Shown here in pieces: positions 51,772 to 58,840 of a stretch of 60,245 nucleotides of DNA; the stretch's first letter is position 1; every line of letters starts with the position of its first letter. The stretch is taken from assembly GCA_913045445.1 (NCBI GenBank), contig CAJWQP010000006.1:1-60245 (forward strand). Direction: 5' to 3'. This stretch comes from an uncultured Nitrospina sp. GTDB taxonomy: Bacteria; Nitrospinota; Nitrospinia; Nitrospinales; VA-1. A program made the position numbers and the translations under genes. The notes beneath the pieces were generated by a model that had not been told where the DNA came from, made no database searches, and saw nothing but the letters and a program-made list of their open reading frames with translations.

Positions 51772-51919
51772 AATTATTTTACAGGCGATGACGCCCGTTT
51801 CACGGAGTTCTGAAATGAAATTAAACCTATACTTAAAAACTACTTGAAGCAGAATTGAATGTCAATTATTTTGGGTGGTTTCCAAACTCGGTTTCCTGAG
51901 ATATAACCTTACTACTATA

Positions 51920-54900
51920 ATGAACCGTTCCCCGATCGTATACTTTCTATTCTTATTTTCCGGAATCACAGCATTGATTTACGAGGTGGTCTGGACTCGC
52001 ATGCTCTCTCTCGTGTTCGGACACACCGTGTTCTCCGTATCCGTGGTTCTGGCGGCATTTATGGCCGGACTGGGTTTCGGGAGCTATTATTTTGGCTGTG
52101 CCATTGACCGTATTTGGGAGGGAAATAAGGCGTTCAGCGAGGAGAATTGGGATGAAAACCTGCCCGAAGACTGGAAGGCACTCACTCCGCTGTTAATCTA
52201 TGGCTGGATTGAGATATTGATATTTGTGTTTTGTGCCATAGTTTCACTGATTCTGTTCGAATTTTCTGTGGTCTATTCCTGGCTGAGCGCTTTTATTCCT
52301 GAATCGCTTGTGGTGCAAAACATCGTCAAGGCCGTGACGGCTTTCGGATTGATGTTTATTCCCGCATCCCTGATGGGCGCGACTCTGCCCATCATCAGCA
52401 AATATTACATTACAGATAACACCAGGTTGGGGACTCAGATGGGGATTCTATACGGTATCAACACACTGGGTGCCGCATCCGGGTGTCTGCTGGCCGGATT
52501 CTTTCTGATCGGAACCTTTGGGGTTTTGCAAACGGTATTGGGTGCCGCGGTGATGAACCTGTTCGTCGGAGTGTGCGCCATTCGGATATATCAGGAATCG
52601 AGGGGAAGCAGTTCGAGTTTACGTTTGCCGCGTTTTAAACTGCCATCATTTAAATGGACGAAGGAGCAGAAGGAGTGGATGGCAATCAGTTTTGCATGTG
52701 GTTTCACCGCGCTGGCTTATGAAGTGTTGTGGACCCGGTTGCTGGTCTTCAGCATTTCCAGCACAGTTTATTCTTTCAGCATGATGCTGGCAGTTTTTCT
52801 CTTGGGAATTACGCTGGGAAGTTTGCTCATGGTGCCTGTGTTCAGGTCAAGCCTGAATTTGCGGACGGTCCTGATATGTCTTCAGGCGGGCATCGGATTT
52901 TACGTGATCGGTTCTTTATACAACATGGAGCAATTACTTTCATCGCCATGGAATAGTTATAGCCTGCAGAACCCGGGAGTCGTGTTTGGTCGGTATTTTA
53001 TGGATTCAGCGGCGCTCATATTATTACCCACAGTTGCTTTGGGTATGAGTTTCCCCATTCTCATTAAGATGATTTCCGGAGGTCACGAACATGTGGGAAG
53101 AGGAACCGGGCAAATCTATGGAGCGAATACCCTGGGCGCAATTTTTGGATCGCTTGTTGCTGGTTTTTTATTTTTGCCCGGACTGGGGTCTGAGCGGAGT
53201 TTGCTTCTTGTCGCGACATTGAACCTGATAATGGTGATGTATCTGTTTCGCACTGGAAGTTACCTGACAACAACGTTACGGAAAATGTTGACAGTGGTTT
53301 TGGCGGCGATAATTGTTGTAGTGAATATGGGCGTGCCTTCGAATTTGCTCGACCAATTTTTTATGCGTGACAGTACAGGTCGGAAAGATATCAGCAAGTT
53401 GTTGTACTTCGAAGAAGGTCTCACTGATACCGTAGCTGTTTTCGAGGACGATTACGGTATTCTGGACCCGGAAGCAAAGCGGCTGGTCACCAATGGTATT
53501 TCCATGTCCGCAGTTAATTTTATTGCTTCGCGGTATATGAAACTGCTGGCGCATATACCCATCCTGTTGGTAGAAAATCCGGAAGATGTTCTGGTCGTTT
53601 GTTTTGGCACGGGGCAAACGACGGGAGCCGCAGGGGTGCATCCGCACGTGAAATCGGTCGACAGCGTGGATTTATCAGAAAGTGTTTTCAAAGCTGGTCA
53701 TGTTTTTGCGTCACACAACTATTCCGCTCTCGATAATGAGAAGATCAACCTTATCCTTCAAGATGGAAGGAACCATTTGCTGACCTCTCGAAAAATGTAT
53801 GACGTTATAACCTCCGAGCCGCCGCCGCCGCGTACCGCGTTCACTGTTAATCTTTACACCCGTGAATATTATGAGTTGGCGCAAAACCATCTGAAGTCCG
53901 GCGGCATTATGACGCAATGGATTCCACTGCACAGTCAGGGAAAGGATGAAGTGTTTATGCATTTTAAAACTTTTCTTTCCGTGTTCCCCCATGCCATGGC
54001 CTGGATGCCGGTTGCCAACGAAATAATCCTCATCGGATCGAATAGCCCGATTGAGATGGACCTTGAAAAGCTGAAGGGGCGTTTTTCTGATCCAATTGTG
54101 AGCCGCGCCATGAAGGAAATACAGGTTCCGGATGCTCTTTCATTTCTCGGCAATATTTGGTTTTTGGAAGACCAGATGAATGATTTGTCTCTGGGACAAC
54201 CCGTGATAACCGACAATCGGCCCGCGATTGAATTCTATCTCGACCTGGGGAAAGTGATAGGCGTGTATGGACGCGAAGACTTTGTGTTTACGCGGGCACC
54301 CTTCAGGAAGATTGTGGGCCGCATTTCTGGCATGACTTACGATGACCAAAAAAACCTGGAAACCATTTACGATGCGATGGATCTGTACCAACGCGGGGTC
54401 ATGTATGGTAATCGTGAACAGCTTCTGGAGGCCTTGGTCAAATTGGGAGACAATGATCTGGTGCGCTACCATTTGCAGGCCGGGACGAAACAGGTTTCTG
54501 CGTTGATTAAGGAGGTGAGTACCAATCCTGCTAATTTAGAAGCTTTACTTAATCTGGGTCATGCGTATTATCAGATTGGTGAATATGAAAAAAGTTTTGG
54601 AATCCTCCAGATTGTTTTAGAAAAAGAAGCCGCAAACTCATTTGCCAACCTGTACTCGGCTTTAAACCTGATGGAACTGGGAAGGCGGGAGGAAGCGAAA
54701 GCTTTTTTTAAAACTGCCAGCAAGAATAACCGTGGTCAGTTTGGCTCTGTCATGCAGGAATTCGCACTGGTTGATTTGCATGCCAAGTTGGATGCCGACC
54801 CTAAAAATCCGGGTCTGCTCAATGCGGTGGCACGGTTTTACAATATTAAAAAGGAATACCAGAAATCGCTGGATTATTCTTTTCAAGTTTTAGAGAAGGA

Positions 54901-55183
54901 ACCTCTGAACAAGCAGGCACTGCAAAATATTGTTTTTGGTTATCGCGGCAGGGGAGAGCCTGCGGAAGTGTTGGACTACGGCAATCGCTACGCTATGGTG
55001 GACCCTGAAGACATCAATTTGCAATATATGATGGGGGAAACTTTTGCGAAGACCCTTCGTTGCGGACAGGCGGTTCCCTATTTACAGCAGGTATTGAAGA
55101 AGGACGATACCTACCGTAATACCCAGTCTCTATTGAATGAATGTCTATCCCGAGAAGTGCAAGAAGAGGGCGCAGGTAACTAG
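51920..55183 (+). CDS. polytopic membrane protein with spermidine-synthase-like domain and C-terminal TPRs
   Basis: FLFSGITALIYEVVWTRMLSLVFGHTVFSVSVVLAAFMAGLGFGS; DVLVVCFGTGQTTGAAGVHPHVKSVDSVDLSESVFKAG; LEALLNLGHAYYQIGEYEKSFGIL. Confidence 0.9.
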   Translation: MNRSPIVYFLFLFSGITALIYEVVWTRMLSLVFGHTVFSVSVVLAAFMAGLGFGSYYFGCAIDRIWEGNKAFSEENWDENLPEDWKALTPLLIYGWIEILIFVFCAIVSLILFEFSVVYSWLSAFIPESLVVQNIVKAVTAFGLMFIPASLMGATLPIISKYYITDNTRLGTQMGILYGINTLGAASGCLLAGFFLIGTFGVLQTVLGAAVMNLFVGVCAIRIYQESRGSSSSLRLPRFKLPSFKWTKEQKEWMAISFACGFTALAYEVLWTRLLVFSISSTVYSFSMMLAVFLLGITLGSLLMVPVFRSSLNLRTVLICLQAGIGFYVIGSLYNMEQLLSSPWNSYSLQNPGVVFGRYFMDSAALILLPTVALGMSFPILIKMISGGHEHVGRGTGQIYGANTLGAIFGSLVAGFLFLPGLGSERSLLLVATLNLIMVMYLFRTGSYLTTTLRKMLTVVLAAIIVVVNMGVPSNLLDQFFMRDSTGRKDISKLLYFEEGLTDTVAVFEDDYGILDPEAKRLVTNGISMSAVNFIASRYMKLLAHIPILLVENPEDVLVVCFGTGQTTGAAGVHPHVKSVDSVDLSESVFKAGHVFASHNYSALDNEKINLILQDGRNHLLTSRKMYDVITSEPPPPRTAFTVNLYTREYYELAQNHLKSGGIMTQWIPLHSQGKDEVFMHFKTFLSVFPHAMAWMPVANEIILIGSNSPIEMDLEKLKGRFSDPIVSRAMKEIQVPDALSFLGNIWFLEDQMNDLSLGQPVITDNRPAIEFYLDLGKVIGVYGREDFVFTRAPFRKIVGRISGMTYDDQKNLETIYDAMDLYQRGVMYGNREQLLEALVKLGDNDLVRYHLQAGTKQVSALIKEVSTNPANLEALLNLGHAYYQIGEYEKSFGILQIVLEKEAANSFANLYSALNLMELGRREEAKAFFKTASKNNRGQFGSVMQEFALVDLHAKLDADPKNPGLLNAVARFYNIKKEYQKSLDYSFQVLEKEPLNKQALQNIVFGYRGRGEPAEVLDYGNRYAMVDPEDINLQYMMGETFAKTLRCGQAVPYLQQVLKKDDTYRNTQSLLNECLSREVQEEGAGN

Positions 55184-57206: not shown

Positions 57207-57512
57207 ATGTCGACTTTTAAATTCCTGCATTGTTCTGATTTACACATTGATAGTCCTTTCAAAGGATTATCCTCGGTGTGCTCTTCTCAGGCTGAACGAT
57301 TTCGCAACTCGACCCATCTCGCCTTTCAAAATGTTATCAAGCTTGCTCTCAAGGATGATGTTTTTGTGAATTTTGATGATGACCGTAACGATCAGATGAT
57401 TGGTCTGGTACAGCATTTTGCCAAATCACGACAAGTTGTGGTTCTCACTTGTCATAGACGTATTTTTGAAGAGTATTCCTCCAAAGGGGCCAACCCCGTA
57501 ACTGTGGGATGA
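57207..57512 (+). pseudogene. in-frame fusion of a YhaO/SbcD-like N-terminus to a YhaN/SbcC-like C-terminus
   Basis: KFLHCSDLHIDSPFKGLS...RFRNSTHLAFQNVIKLAL joined to DDVFVNFDDDRNDQMIGLVQHFAKSRQVVVLTCHRRI. Confidence 0.7.
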
Positions 57513-57523
57513 TGGTGCCCTGA

Positions 57524-58840
57524 ATGGAAATTTTCATGAAATATATACGGGTATTTCTATTCGCAGGTATTATTGCTTTTCTTTCCCCATATAAATCCTT
57601 TGCAAATTCTCAGAACACTTTTAACCAACTGATTCTCGCTAAGAGTTCTTTGGAGTCCAGATTTAATGTGCAGTCTGTTGAATGTTTTCCGTTCAAAGAG
57701 AACATTGGTTTTACTGAGGACCAGATTCCGCTCATTAAGAACTGCCTTGCGGGAGTTCGACTCCTAACATCGGCGTTGGATAGTGTGGTAGACCCAGAAA
57801 TTCATACCGTGGGTATCAGTACGCGTTTCCTGAGGACTGGTGGATTCAACACCGTGTTGATTCCGTGGAACGCCTCATTGCCGGAGACAGTCGCTTTTCT
57901 GGAAAATAGATTATCAAAAGAAAAGCAGGGTCTTTTCCTCGCCAAAATTTCTACGCTGAAAAGAAAAATAAATTTAAAACTAAGGATCCCTTCCCTTTAT
58001 TGTTCACAGCGTATTTCTAACGAGCAGTGCATGGCGGGGTACGAGAGTTTGTCGTCAGTTGAGATGCCTCCCGGCGCTAAACCTGTCCGGTGGAAGGAAA
58101 TTGTGTTGGATAATGAACGAGGGCTGGGTGAAAATTCGCATTCATATCGGATTAATTACCATGCTTCCTCGGAAGAAATGTTTGCAATTCTTCTGATGGA
58201 TCCGCAAAAGGAATGGTCATTTCGCAAGAGAATGTATGATGATATCAAGTCAAAGTTTAAGGGAGCCTTTGAGAAGCGACTTCAGGTTGCTACTTATTTT
58301 TGCTCAACGGAATTAACGGTTAAAAATTGTCTGGAGGGAATAGCCAGTTTGTCTCAGGCCAGCGAAAGGCAGGTTATGCGAATGAAGGCCTGGGGTGAGG
58401 TGGTCATCGATGAATACAATACATTTATCAAAGACGATTTCGACGTTTCGATCAGGTTTGATTTGCCAACGGATGAATTGGTGAGTTATTTTTCATCTAA
58501 GGAGAACCGGGCAGAAGCAACCGAAAATGCGGTGCTTGTGGAAAAACTTGAAAAGCGCACGTTGAATAATCCGAGCGGACTCCGTGCCGTTTGTGACTTG
58601 GATGGGATGCGCTCAAGATTGTGCGTGGGAGCTTTTAAAGATTTTATCAGTTTTGTGTCAAGTCATAGAGACTACAGGGTAAAAGAGCCGTGGGAGAGTG
58701 TGATGTTTATTGATGGAACACAGCTTGCCCGGGTTAACTTCGCTTTGAATTCACCGCCCCGTCATTCATATATCTATATCGATGCCGCGAGTGGTGCCGA
58801 GGAACTGCAAACTCACCTGATGAGGTTTGGGAAACAATAG
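57524..58840 (+). CDS. exported protein with four Cys-pair repeats, family unknown
   Basis: Signal peptide YIRVFLFAGIIAFLSPYKSFA; Cys pairs 54/74, 160/169, 260/269, 357/367; Trp at 190, 290, 390. Confidence 0.85.
   Translation: MEIFMKYIRVFLFAGIIAFLSPYKSFANSQNTFNQLILAKSSLESRFNVQSVECFPFKENIGFTEDQIPLIKNCLAGVRLLTSALDSVVDPEIHTVGISTRFLRTGGFNTVLIPWNASLPETVAFLENRLSKEKQGLFLAKISTLKRKINLKLRIPSLYCSQRISNEQCMAGYESLSSVEMPPGAKPVRWKEIVLDNERGLGENSHSYRINYHASSEEMFAILLMDPQKEWSFRKRMYDDIKSKFKGAFEKRLQVATYFCSTELTVKNCLEGIASLSQASERQVMRMKAWGEVVIDEYNTFIKDDFDVSIRFDLPTDELVSYFSSKENRAEATENAVLVEKLEKRTLNNPSGLRAVCDLDGMRSRLCVGAFKDFISFVSSHRDYRVKEPWESVMFIDGTQLARVNFALNSPPRHSYIYIDAASGAEELQTHLMRFGKQ

Follow-up and report, generated by a model that had tools for sequence, protein, structure and literature searches.

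The window, a stretch of 60,245 nucleotides from an uncultured Nitrospina sp., carries a gene for a putatively exported protein with four repeats, and directly before it lies the fused remnant of an sbcD-yhaN pair. The open reading frame was found intact where the original prediction had placed it and encodes 438 amino acids (Table 1); its true start may differ from the first ATG. The codon-position differences between this gene and its nearest named orthologue are 57/29/141, which argues for a real gene that is under selection at the protein level.

Table 1 Features of the locus, in window coordinates
Feature	Positions	Strand	Basis
sbcD-yhaN fusion remnant, 101 aa, separate from the four-repeat protein	57207..57512	+	ends 11 nt before the four-repeat gene
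Whole gene, four-repeat putatively exported protein, 438 aa	57524..58840	+	intact ORF, orthologues, AF2 pLDDT 91.3
Putative signal peptide, ~residues 1–28, cleavage near SFA/NS, variable sequence	57524..57607	+	sequence reading, low conservation, low pLDDT
Repeat 1, residues 31–128, Cys 54/74, conserved RFLRTxGFxTxxxPW hairpin	57614..57907	+	profile comparison, AF2, held-out test, conservation
Repeat 2, residues 132–226, Cys 160/169, Trp190	57917..58201	+	profile comparison, AF2, held-out test, alignment
Repeat 3, residues 229–328, Cys 260/269, Trp290	58208..58507	+	profile comparison, AF2, held-out test, alignment
Repeat 4, residues 331–436, Cys 357/367, Trp390, PWxxxMFxDGxxxxRxNFALNS	58514..58831	+	conservation, AF2

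Distribution and gene neighborhood

A first search found orthologues at 36–83% identity in 46 of 59 other genomes (47 of 60 when its own genome is counted). Of the 77 class genomes searched by profile, 53 contain the family; all 53 belong to one order, and five families outside that order gave no match. Each genome holds at most one full-length copy, and G007 alone has an additional fragment. When the phylum was scanned with a single-repeat profile, the significant E-values listed belonged to the orthologues alone; one isolated, weaker match in G061 (E 1.8e-5) is probably a fragment. Across 85,462 species genomes, a further scan returned 37 loci, nearly all labeled Nitrospinota or Nitrospina; its query consisted of only two motifs, from repeats 3 and 4, and it would therefore miss distant relatives. 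One contig, L039, is filed under an Emcibacteraceae MAG and has a gene order identical to that of the Nitrospinaceae contig L041, so binning contamination is probable.

Two arrangements recur immediately upstream of the gene. In 14 loci the neighbor encodes a YhaN-like AAA protein that is paired with SbcD, and in 15 it encodes a 404-aa exported-looking protein at the end of an MMPL/LolA_like block. FliW and CsrA are often encoded downstream, mostly on the opposite strand. The remnant in the window is an in-frame fusion of codons 1–52 of sbcD and codons 847–900 of yhaN, as numbered in the nearest relative (L031), and ~3.7 kb that L031 contains is missing from the window assembly, in which no second copy of yhaN was found. 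The missing sequence may reflect an assembly error instead of a real deletion. The YhaN-like protein encoded beside SbcD in the relative (L031:5287-7986) scores against LmuB (Lamassu) models (PADLOC E 1.3e-14), and the SbcD and YhaN-like pair may be a DNA-repair or defense complex.

The exported-looking protein of the second arrangement (~404 aa; L048:6654-7865 and relatives, cluster 5) follows the MMPL and LolA_like genes and gave no Pfam or NCBIfam match. At L040, L041, L043, L048, L049, L054 and L067, a TATAAT-like box ends ~6 bases before the ATG of the four-repeat gene, which suggests a leaderless message in several genera; several of these loci also have a TTGCC stretch ~18 bases further upstream. 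Elsewhere in the window, positions 51875-55183 of the forward strand encode a 1102-aa fusion protein in which a multi-pass membrane part, as read from the sequence, is joined to a spermine-synthase-like domain and C-terminal TPR repeats.

Cysteine pairs and internal repeats

For the analysis of the protein itself we used an alignment of 38 rows, the window protein and 37 orthologues. Judged from the sequence, the protein is probably exported to the periplasm. Conservation in the signal-peptide region is low (majority fraction 0.32), pLDDT is low at residues 18–28, and most orthologues combine a hydrophobic N-terminus with a cleavage site that appears plausible when read by eye. The four cysteine pairs of the original prediction, 54/74, 160/169, 260/269 and 357/367, proved exact. 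These eight are the only cysteines of the window protein. All are invariant in the alignment, and 37 of the 38 rows have no further one from residue 31 onward, where the mature part lies. Because eight invariant, paired cysteines occur in a putatively exported protein, a single disulfide probably ties the end of the first strand to the following helix in each module. DsbA-like genes are present in the window genome; VKOR was also looked for as the oxidase and was not found there.

The original prediction suggested that the protein arose by duplication of a ~100-aa domain with one cysteine pair per unit, and the duplication is supported by profile comparison, by a held-out test and by the predicted fold. 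Repeats 1–3 are related by sequence. The hhalign probabilities are 97% for repeats 2 and 3, 92% for repeats 1 and 2 and 75% for repeats 1 and 3, while repeat 4 reaches less than 4% with any partner. Profiles from which one repeat had been held out recovered repeats 2 and 3 in 38 of 38 orthologues (E<1e-3), and repeat 1 in 19 of 38 at E<0.05 and in 5 of 38 at <1e-3. Repeat 4 was not recovered from any of the 38. At E<0.05 the controls gave no hit among background proteins and one in the shuffled set. These profiles were derived from an alignment that had contained the tested repeat and are consequently not wholly independent of it. A profile comparison of repeat 4 with a stack of repeats 1–3 was likewise not significant. 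The count of four therefore stands on the four units of the model and not on sequence kinship of repeat 4, which appears to be a member with a diverged sequence, as judged from the predicted structure and the layout.

An exact 100-residue register, also proposed at the outset, describes part of the protein. The recurring tryptophans W190, W290 and W390 are invariant in the 38 rows and lie 100 residues apart as claimed (W290–W390 in 38 of 38 rows, W190–W290 in 32 of 38); the corresponding site in repeat 1 is not a Trp. The cysteines of repeats 2 and 3 keep the same spacing of 100 (33 of 38 rows), whereas the spacing is 106 between repeats 1 and 2 (C54–C160) and 97/98 between repeats 3 and 4, so that the register does not extend to the cysteines of repeats 1 and 4. 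The [LMV]xGxxx[LF] helix motif likewise holds for repeats 1–3 and is replaced in repeat 4 by a CxxxFxxF version.

Predicted fold and structural matches

AlphaFold2, run on the 38-sequence alignment, gave a full-length model with a pLDDT of 91.3 and a pTM of 0.86. The elements follow one order in each of the four units of the model: a long helix, a strand ending at the first Cys, a helix with the second Cys, two further strands and a closing helix. The cysteines occupy equivalent places in all four. Repeat 4 has, in addition, a helical stretch (residues 401–414) between its last two strands. Four modules are thus predicted, the fourth diverged in sequence. Repeats 2 and 3, folded as a separate two-repeat fragment, reached a pLDDT of 92. 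Surface conservation is highest at the hairpins in repeats 1, 3 and 4, foremost at the signature hairpin of repeat 4 given in Table 1.

Searches of Pfam, NCBIfam, PHROG and PADLOC gave no credible match to the protein, and no enzyme was matched in any sequence or structure library searched. Matches to ChaN, VapD, CapR, TssO and GtgE were weak, below cut-off or scattered over few members, and we regard them as chance. A viral or mobile origin found no support in the structure search of BFVD, which gave no significant match, or in tblastn against phages and plasmids, which gave none.

The initial impression of a protein outside any known family is right for sequence families, whereas the fold has some precedent. 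When the full model was compared by Foldseek with 350,542 PDB chains, five of them matched at E<=1e-3, each with prob 1.00, and these represent three mitochondrial proteins: mt-SAF6 (E 2e-7), TCAIM (E 5e-6) and chain E3 of the Trypanosoma brucei mitoribosomal large-subunit assembly intermediate (6yxx; E 6e-4). The next PDB match had an E of 0.27 and a prob of 0.03. With the two-repeat fragment, only mt-SAF6 (2.5e-7) and TCAIM (9.5e-4) were significant; chain E3 was not (E 0.15). TM-scores of the Foldseek matches are 0.22–0.40 by query length with rmsd values of 7–16 Å, which indicates that the match is local and that the modules are placed differently.

The best structural match, T. brucei mt-SAF6, is chain F6 of 6sga, 7pub and 7pua and was deposited as a DUF4460 domain-containing protein. 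It shares 15–16% identity with the window protein over 207–330 columns and differs in being a 676-aa assembly factor of the mitoribosomal small subunit; at TM 0.2–0.4, its module arrangement differs as well. TCAIM (PDB 8i0k, chain C) is a human mitochondrial DNAJC co-chaperone that lowers OGDH levels. It reportedly binds native, folded OGDH E1 through β-repeat motifs (review PMC13311838). Its likeness to the window protein lies in the significant Foldseek matches with both models, at a TM of only 0.31–0.46 and ~10% identity; the window protein, by contrast, is bacterial, begins with a stretch that resembles a signal peptide and has four Cys pairs that are conserved.

At the sequence level, mt-SAF6 was the sole PDB sequence that one stacked-repeat profile picked up at E<=10 (E 0.62, not significant alone). 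Three other repeat profiles did not find it, and we therefore count this match as supporting only. The Pfam DUF4460 profile (PF14687) did not match the protein; its sole match in the genome scored 18 bits, below cut-off, and was dismissed as noise, since the matched protein is YicC-like and encoded on a different contig. At E<=10, DUF4461 (PF14688) matched nothing in the genome, and the control genomes were equally silent. It was also absent from the families listed (25 of 29) in a Pfam scan of the 38 aligned proteins at E<=1 and from a scan of 40 single repeats at E<=10. Given the result with the DUF4460 profile, we do not file the protein as a TCAIM/DUF4460-DUF4461 member, and our claim is that it would work like a TCAIM-type repeat scaffold. 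In the literature searched we found no mention of DUF4460 or mt-SAF6, and no bacterial relative of these mitochondrial binding proteins.

Proposed role and competing explanations

We propose, with moderate confidence, that the protein is a non-enzymatic periplasmic protein-binding scaffold whose TCAIM-like repeats each contain one disulfide. The exported protein would be a tandem array of four modules, each running strand, helix, strand, strand, helix, with long helices as connectors and a disulfide in every module fastening the end of the first strand to the helix that follows. Without acting as an enzyme, the array would grip a folded partner protein, probably by the strand-2/strand-3 hairpins that are conserved in repeats 1, 3 and 4, as TCAIM reportedly holds OGDH with its β-repeats. 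Both the role in binding and the surface proposed for it are inferred. Since the protein is putatively exported, a cytoplasmic OGDH partner is unlikely for it, and the gene neighborhood, which names no partner, counts against the scaffold reading. So does the strong conservation of repeat 4, the most conserved part of the protein with 25 invariant residues (D397, G398, R403, N405, N409, S410, Y416 and Y418 among them), which would also fit a small-ligand or catalytic site. That the protein is an enzyme or small-ligand binder with its site in repeat 4 and the other repeats structural is nevertheless very improbable in our view, as the searches by sequence and structure matched it to no enzyme and no catalytic motif was recognized. 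We also consider it unlikely, if somewhat less so, that the protein serves outer-membrane traffic of lipids or lipoproteins as a periplasmic accessory, together with the MMPL (HAE3-like) exporter and the LolA-like protein whose genes lie upstream in many relatives. The 15 loci in which the gene directly follows the MMPL/LolA_like block speak for such a role; against it, 14 loci, the window with its remnant included, have the sbcD-yhaN pair in that place, and in several genera the gene has a promoter-like TATAAT box of its own close to the ATG.

The main rival to homology with TCAIM is convergence. The repeats and the fold would then be as described, the likeness to TCAIM and mt-SAF6 would have arisen independently on a simple α/β module, and the protein would be a lineage-specific periplasmic one with a function unrelated to that of TCAIM. 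The low TM-scores, the lack of a robust sequence link, the difference in compartment and the restriction of the family to one order are all consistent with this. A commonplace fold, however, should yield many unrelated matches, whereas only three proteins were significant among all PDB chains searched, with the best match separated from the next by several orders of magnitude, and both mt-SAF6 and TCAIM recur with the independently folded fragment. We regard convergence as a serious but rather unlikely explanation. Common ancestry of the repeats with those of TCAIM is plausible, though unproven. Tentatively, and with somewhat more doubt than confidence, we suggest that the mitochondrial repeat of TCAIM and mt-SAF6 has a true bacterial relative in this exported, disulfide-stapled four-repeat scaffold of the Nitrospinales.

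The four-repeat protein is undescribed and is conserved throughout a bacterial order that includes the marine nitrite oxidizer Nitrospina, and its predicted fold ties it to a handful of mitochondrial binding proteins that are poorly understood. If the link to these proteins is true, it would provide a case, amenable to testing, in which two very dissimilar compartments use one repeat module as a binding scaffold. Should the protein be a true bacterial relative, it would point to a bacterial origin of the mitochondrial binding module and would make a compact system available for studying that module.
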